A program made the translations under genes and the position numbers. A stretch of 54,223 bases of DNA from Sulfobacillus sp. (GTDB lineage Bacteria > Bacillota > Sulfobacillia > Sulfobacillales > Sulfobacillaceae): NCBI GenBank assembly GCA_027309085.1, contig DAIDDL010000028.1, positions 1-54,223 on the forward strand, in the 5' to 3' direction. This document shows, piece after piece, positions 25,252-26,485 of the stretch. The first letter of the stretch is position 1. Each line of letters starts with the position of its first letter. Below the pieces are notes generated by a model. It saw only the letters and a program-made list of their open reading frames with translations, made no database searches and was not told where the DNA came from.

Positions 25252-25289
25252 CACATTCGCCTCCAATTTCACCCTCGATAATACCAGGG

Positions 25290-25514
25290 AAAAGCAAGAA
25301 AGAGAAGATAGCATGCTATCTTCTCTTCTATGCCCCGCCATGCCGTGGAACACCGACGTTTTGAACCTGCTACTAGCAGGTGGGCACCTCCCGTTAACTT
25401 TCGCAGTCCCCTATATTCAGGGCCGGACGGCCATTAACTGCGGATCAGGTTCCCTATGTTCTGATGTTGGCTCAAAACATATCGGTCGTCTTCACGTACA
25501 CAGCCGGATTTGTA
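25290..25514 (-). ncRNA. ssrS: Candidate 6S RNA
   Basis: A promoter (25521-25549) and a terminator palindrome (25300-25327) bound a transcript of about 200-225 bases with no ORF. It folds as a long rod. Outer stems pair 25499-25504 with 25337-25342, and 25472-25478/25482-25486 with 25358-25364/25352-25356. An inner stem pairs 25447-25454 with 25382-25389. Between outer and inner stems lies an open region whose 3' side carries its own hairpin (25365-25381), as in the 6S central bubble. In Bacillus the 6S-1 gene also lies between aspS and the rarA homologue, as here. Such RNAs bind sigma-A RNA polymerase. Identification rests on structure and synteny, not a database match. Confidence 0.62.
25300..25327 (-). 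terminator. 28-base perfect palindrome ending the 6S candidate
   Basis: Arms 25300-25313 and 25314-25327 are exactly complementary. On the minus strand they are followed by the T-rich CTTGCTTTTCCC, so this is likely a terminator, and it separates the RNA from trxA. Confidence 0.6.
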
Positions 25515-25520
25515 ACCCTT

Positions 25521-25549
25521 ATTATAATGACCCCAGTGCGCGAATGCAA
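25521..25549 (-). promoter_or_regulatory. Sigma-A promoter of the 6S candidate
   Basis: On the minus strand TTGCAT (25549-25544) and a perfect TATAAT (25526-25521) are separated by exactly 17 bases. The start would fall near 25513-25515. From 25550 to 25720 no gene or other element is seen. Confidence 0.65.
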
Positions 25550-25721: not shown

Positions 25722-25748
25722 GGGATGCCTGCCAAAGGCAGGCATCCC
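25722..25748 (-). terminator. Terminator of the DUF3243 gene
   Basis: A 12-bp perfect stem GGGATGCCTGCC/GGCAGGCATCCC with loop AAA (TTT on the minus strand) is followed on the minus strand by CTCTTTTTG. It lies just past the stop at 25755. Confidence 0.85.
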
Positions 25749-25754
25749 AAGATA

Positions 25755-26009
25755 TTAGGAGAGGTCGTCGTCGTCCTTCGCCATACGGGTGACCATATTT
25801 GCAAGCATCTCTTTCTGTTTCGGTCCGCTTGCCTGCCACATCCGCTTTGCTACGCGGTCTTGCGCATTCTTCGGCTCAACCCCGGCTTGCAGCATCGCGT
25901 CACCCATGTCCACAACGTCGCTTTGCACGTTGTGTTCACCGCCGTTGTGAAGTTTCTCAGCTACACGGGACTTTAACTCATGAAATGACTGCGGCACACC
26001 CTTTGCCAA
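25755..26009 (-). CDS. DUF3243 family protein
   Basis: The C-terminal half (GVEPKNAQDRVAKRMWQ...EMLANMVTRMAK) matches the DUF3243 pattern of Bacillus YmfJ (VDPKNxxERLLKELW...ANMxVKL). Function unknown; small, helical and cytosolic. The frame is open to 26078, but GGAGG seven bases before TTG 26009 gives 84 residues, the usual family length. It is monocistronic with a strong terminator. Confidence 0.7.
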   Translation of the reverse strand: MAKGVPQSFHELKSRVAEKLHNGGEHNVQSDVVDMGDAMLQAGVEPKNAQDRVAKRMWQASGPKQKEMLANMVTRMAKDDDDLS

Positions 26010-26152
26010 AGGAATCCCTCCCTCAATCAGTTGGATTAGAGCCAGTTCTGTGGGCTCCAATGCTATTGTGCGCCGCACCGCTCCAAACTATGAGAGGAAT
26101 AATTCACAGCTCGCGCGCCAGACTAGAACCGACAATGAAAGGAGGAGAACCA

Positions 26153-26485
26153 ATGAGCTGGGTAGGAACCGTGGTGCGATTTGTCGTAGCCGCACTGGTG
26201 TTGATGTTCATGGGTTATGTCGTGCCGGGATTTTCGCATCTGGGATTTTGGTCAGCAATGTTGGCGGCATTAGTGATTGCGCTGGCTGGATACCTGATTG
26301 AAGCCATGTTCGGCAAATCCGCATCGCCGTACGGGCGCGGACTCGTCGGATTTCTAGTTTCCGCAGTGGTCATTTATTTCGCGCAATTTGTAGTGCCGAC
26401 TATGCATGTTTCAGTCTTGGCGGCGCTTATCGCGGCCTTTATTATCGGGTTAGTGGATCTATTTATTCCCACGGCAGTCCGGTAG
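26153..26485 (+). CDS. YvlD-like phage holin family 4 membrane protein
   Basis: 110 residues, four hydrophobic helices with small loops. VVPGFSHLGFWSAMLAALVIALAGYLIE and SPYGRGLVGFLVSAVVIYFAQFVVP fit the YvlD/holin-4 superfamily, widespread chromosomal proteins without known lytic function. ATG 26153 follows AAAGGAGGAG. Because the frame is open far upstream, the ribosome site decides the start. Its stop codon lies inside the terminator hairpin. Confidence 0.8.
   Translation: MSWVGTVVRFVVAALVLMFMGYVVPGFSHLGFWSAMLAALVIALAGYLIEAMFGKSASPYGRGLVGFLVSAVVIYFAQFVVPTMHVSVLAALIAAFIIGLVDLFIPTAVR

Follow-up and report, generated by a model that had tools for sequence, protein, structure and literature searches.

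Does the DNA at positions 25,290 to 25,514 of a 54,223-nucleotide stretch from a Sulfobacillus (hereafter the window, meaning that whole stretch), which had been proposed from its letters alone to carry a 6S RNA gene, in fact encode such an RNA, and is the RNA built like those already described? 6S RNA is a small bacterial RNA that inhibits RNA polymerase when nutrients are scarce, and its distribution has reportedly been surveyed by Wehner et al. in 2014.

A single 6S RNA gene in Sulfobacillus

An Rfam covariance-model search of the window, the check put forward with the original prediction, matched the 6S/SsrS family (RF00013) at 25512..25328 of the minus strand with a score of 67.2 bits (E 3.6e-11), above the curated cut-off for that family (gathering score, 46.4 bits). 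The match covered the full length of the model (positions 1-187), and elsewhere in the window the only Rfam match was one tRNA. The source genome is that of a Sulfobacillus close to S. thermotolerans, its AspS being 86% identical to that of strain Kr1. A genome-wide search of the 4.5 Mb draft with RF00013 gave one match and no second copy of the kind present in B. subtilis; unlike that species, this Sulfobacillus has a single-copy 6S RNA. Among relatives ranging from the same genus to the same class, 59 of 61 genomes contained a match (58 of 61 above the cut-off), as did 192 of the 199 genomes in a phylum-wide sample (189 above the cut-off), where most scores exceeded the 67 bits of the Sulfobacillus RNA. 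One class-level relative (L005, from genome G053) yielded two matches on separate contigs, at 103.2 and 71 bits, which may be compared with the two copies of B. subtilis.

The gene and its flanking signals comprise the following features:

25544..25549, minus strand: -35 element TTGCAT, read from the sequence (TTGNNN in 34/34 genomes of the order)
25521..25526, minus strand: -10 element TATAAT, read from the sequence (TATAAT in 34/34 genomes of the order)
25328..25512, minus strand: 6S RNA body, the full-length RF00013 match
25300..25327, minus strand: terminator-like palindrome of perfect 14+14 bases, followed by a weak T-tract

The two promoter elements are 17 nucleotides apart on the minus strand, and the arrangement TTGNNN-17/18-TATAAT precedes the 6S RNA in all 34 order-level genomes, with a spacer of 17 in 33 of them and 18 in one. 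The elements and spacing that had been called a textbook promoter are therefore present and conserved, but that description is too strong: three of the six bases in the -35 element depart from the consensus, so that a generic consensus promoter scan missed the 6S promoter altogether. Transcription probably starts at about 25514-25512, and a primary-sigma promoter at this position would produce an RNA of ~190 nt, or ~220 nt if the terminator hairpin is included. The predicted 28-base palindrome was recovered at 25327..25300 and scored terminator-like, although the T-tract that follows it (TCTTGCTTTTCC) is weak. A terminator-like stem stands immediately 3' of the 6S RNA in 34/34 genomes of the order and takes 31 distinct forms, so its pairing has been kept while its letters have changed. 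These signals point to a free-standing gene with its own promoter and terminator. Upstream of the 6S promoter, on the same strand, a 12-bp perfect GC-rich hairpin followed by CTCTTTTTGT (25722-25748) is the probable terminator of the preceding DUF3243 gene.

The conserved gene order in most of the order is hisS-aspS-(PF04020, opposite strand)-DUF3243-6S-trxA-threonine aldolase-rarA, and S. thermotolerans Kr1 shares it. The placement of the RNA between aspS and rarA, likened originally to the 6S-1 locus, is thus right in substance and reflects conserved synteny, but neither gene adjoins it: DUF3243 and a convergent PF04020 gene separate it from aspS, and trxA and a threonine-aldolase-like gene separate it from rarA. 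Downstream of the 6S RNA and on the same strand, rarA occurs in 36/36 order genomes that have both on one contig, with its C-terminal domain mostly ~2.2 kb from the RNA, and in 47/48 genomes class-wide. 6S RNA and rarA are also near neighbours across the lactic acid bacteria and at the 6S-1 locus of B. subtilis (PMC8414754). The Sulfobacillus arrangement differs from that of B. subtilis in having rarA on the 6S strand, separated from the RNA by trxA and the aldolase gene. The DUF3243 gene (25755-26078, minus strand) is directly upstream of the 6S RNA in nearly all order genomes. The PF04020 gene (26207-26485, plus strand) encodes a small membrane protein, is opposed to its neighbours, and throughout the order keeps its place between aspS and DUF3243, with 67-92% identity.

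Because trxA begins only ~80 bases downstream of the 6S RNA on the same strand, and the two are kept together in most of the order, the conserved RNA might instead be read as a structured 5' untranslated region of trxA through which thioredoxin is regulated. We consider this extremely unlikely and reject it, because a terminator-like hairpin intervenes between the RNA and trxA in all 34 order genomes and because the RNA persists where no trxA match adjoins it (genomes G036, G037 and G041, and several members of the class). The full-length match to the 6S model likewise tells against a thioredoxin leader. Between the 6S terminator and trxA there is, moreover, an extended -10-like sequence on the minus strand (TGGTATTAT, 25286..25278); the equivalent position in many relatives carries TGGTAAGAT/TGGTAATAT, so trxA probably has a promoter of its own.

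The full-length match, its recurrence among relatives, the promoter, terminator and gene order, and the covariation and template conservation described below all bear out the original interpretation, and as judged from sequence and predicted structure this is an ordinary, well-conserved 6S RNA that adds one to a known family. It is practically certain, in our view, that this Sulfobacillus has its only 6S RNA gene (ssrS / bsrA-type) at this locus. The RNA had also been said to lack coding capacity; no ORF within it is supported as a gene, although mechanically called ORFs do overlap it. Apart from one coincidence in a reference list, our literature search retrieved no paper naming both 6S RNA and Sulfobacillus, and the gene call adds a single-copy 6S RNA and a predicted product RNA (pRNA) to this acidophilic, moderately thermophilic genus.

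Fold, covariation and the predicted pRNA template

The structural elements considered below are located as follows:

25469..25478, minus strand: helix P2, 5' strand GUUUUGAGCC (RF00013 alignment; 51 sequences)
25358..25367, minus strand: helix P2, 3' strand GGUUCAAAAC (RF00013 alignment; 51 sequences)
25466..25479, minus strand: predicted pRNA template UGUUUUGAGCCAAC (alignment with the B. subtilis 6S-1 pRNA; near-invariant in relatives)
25365..25381, minus strand: 3' central-bubble hairpin ACCUGCU-AGU-AGCAGGU (predicted fold; covariation analysis; counterpart in B. subtilis 6S-1, PMC8876501)
25455..25481, minus strand: 5' central-bubble hairpin UAUGUUUUG ... CAGAACAUA (predicted fold; alternative to P2; overlaps the pRNA template)

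The RNA is predicted to fold at -90.2 kcal/mol (z -5.33), a value equalled by none of 200 dinucleotide shuffles, into a rod that is open at its centre and has a 7-bp hairpin on the 3' side (25381..25365); a shape of this kind had been anticipated from the sequence. The predicted fold has the closing stem, open centre and terminal stem of the 6S architecture. RNAalifold, applied to 51 aligned sequences, returned 31 consensus pairs, of which 12 have at least one double-sided change, so the covariation on which the original prediction had staked itself is present in relatives. For helix P2, covariation says little because the helix is almost invariant (96.3% of its cells are paired over the 51 sequences).

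Alignment with the pRNA measured for B. subtilis 6S-1, 5'-GUUCGGUCAAAACU (PMC12005410), places the Sulfobacillus template at 25479..25466, at the 5' central bubble, and predicts a similar pRNA, 5'-GUUGGCUCAAAACA, which begins GUUGGCUC; the template UUUUGAGCCAACA is nearly invariant across the 51 sequences. The Sulfobacillus RNA resembles B. subtilis 6S-1 (bsrA) in its rod shape, its 3' central-bubble hairpin and the proximity of rarA (PMC12005410, PMC8876501, PMC8414754). From the neighbouring rarA, the predicted pRNA of GUU..GUCAAAAC type, and the 3'-bubble hairpin predicted in the free RNA, we infer that it belongs to the Bacillota 6S-1 type. With E. coli 6S RNA (ssrS) it has the family and the overall architecture in common, but in E. 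coli a 9-bp 3'-bubble hairpin forms only after P2 opens (PMC8876501), whereas Sulfobacillus follows Bacillus in that its 7-bp hairpin is predicted to form already in the free RNA.

By analogy with other members of the family, the rod with its open centre would resemble a melted promoter, and in stationary phase the RNA would bind RNA polymerase carrying the housekeeping sigma factor and block promoters. When NTPs return, the polymerase would copy the pRNA, 5'-GUUGGCUCAAAACA..., starting at the C of CCAAC, and this synthesis would open helix P2 and release the enzyme. Polymerase binding, a stationary-phase role and pRNA synthesis are thus carried over to Sulfobacillus from the 6S family.

A predicted alternative hairpin in the 5' central bubble

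The minimum-energy fold lacks helix P2 (GUUUUGAGCC/GGUUCAAAAC). Instead, the 5' strand of P2 and the far side of the 5' central bubble pair to form a 9-bp hairpin inside the bubble, with arms UAUGUUUUG and CAGAACAUA (far arm, 25463..25455), and because the hairpin captures the P2 5' strand it also captures the pRNA template. The family consensus of RF00013, to which the RNA otherwise matches at full length, has no such hairpin, and the 5' bubble is likewise left open in a consensus of 14 Firmicutes RNAs (PMC8876501). In B. subtilis 6S-1, which has a 3'-bubble hairpin, the far 5' bubble forms a collapse helix with the P2 3' strand (PMC8876501); in Sulfobacillus the same region complements the P2 5' strand. 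Of the 34 sequences of the order, 29 can form all nine hairpin pairs and five can form eight, and one genus shows a compensatory change (UAGGUUUUG/CAAGACCUA; G036, G037). Across the order, the median difference between the computed energies of the two conformers is 0.2 kcal/mol at 37 C and 1.0 kcal/mol at 50 C, values that are only a rough guide because pairs were forced, which handicaps lineages lacking the full hairpin. In this order, pairing of the P2 5' strand inside the 5' bubble is thus about as favourable as pairing in P2. The RNA therefore probably alternates between two conformers in balance, and in one of them the pRNA template is hidden.

The complementarity could, on the other hand, have no structural role and be a by-product of constraint on the primary sequence, in which a U-rich template faces an A-rich bubble. 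The near-invariance of both arms within the Sulfobacillales carries little information and suits this explanation, as does the weak 5'-bubble pairing predicted for B. subtilis 6S-1, which probing did not confirm (PMC8876501). The alignment of 51 sequences gave covariation in the hairpin that was suggestive but weak, most lineages outside the order lacking the hairpin, and we therefore turned to a phylum-wide arm-swap test, set outside the order because the arms hardly vary within it. With the register fixed beforehand from the Sulfobacillales, the test took 127 RNAs, representing 82 Bacillota families outside the order, and compared their own arms with arms exchanged between families; 20 of 181 sequences were omitted for want of the anchor motif, and families were counted as independent although they are only partly so. 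With their own arms, about 10 of the 82 families reached 8 or more Watson-Crick pairs; with swapped arms the figure was 1.3 +/- 1.1 (maximum 6 in 5000 draws). Neighbouring registers yielded 0-3 families as against 12 at the hairpin register (G-U allowed), and twelve distinct pairs of matching arms were seen outside the order, for example UUUGUAAUG/CAUUACAAA and UUAGUAUUG/CAAUACUAA, some with changes in the core of the stem. These results speak against a by-product, but ~70 of the 82 families outside the order have no hairpin, and the pair count averaged over every family hardly exceeds the swapped value (4.60 with own arms, 4.43 with swapped arms, p about 0.09): the hairpin is a feature of a subset of lineages and not of the family. 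On balance we lean against the by-product explanation, which nevertheless keeps a substantial chance of being correct.

The reading we prefer, unproven and with not quite an even chance of being right, is that 6S RNA acts as a two-state switch in the Sulfobacillales and in several further lineages of Bacillota, with the hairpin competing with P2 and with the pRNA. The template would pair either with the P2 3' strand, giving the polymerase-competent rod, or with a copy-like segment of the 5' bubble, and the selected, template-hiding hairpin would set the threshold for release or else strip the pRNA and lock the released RNA. It is equally possible that the hairpin is a co-transcriptional folding intermediate. 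A covarying 5'-bubble hairpin that overlaps the pRNA template may be a new feature: among the papers accessible to our search, none describes one that captures the P2 5' strand, which is no proof of novelty. Polymerase release from 6S RNA differs between E. coli and Bacillus, and competition of such a hairpin with P2 and the pRNA, if true, would constitute a third arrangement beside these two. In several of the hairpin-bearing lineages outside the order, P2 itself is imperfect.
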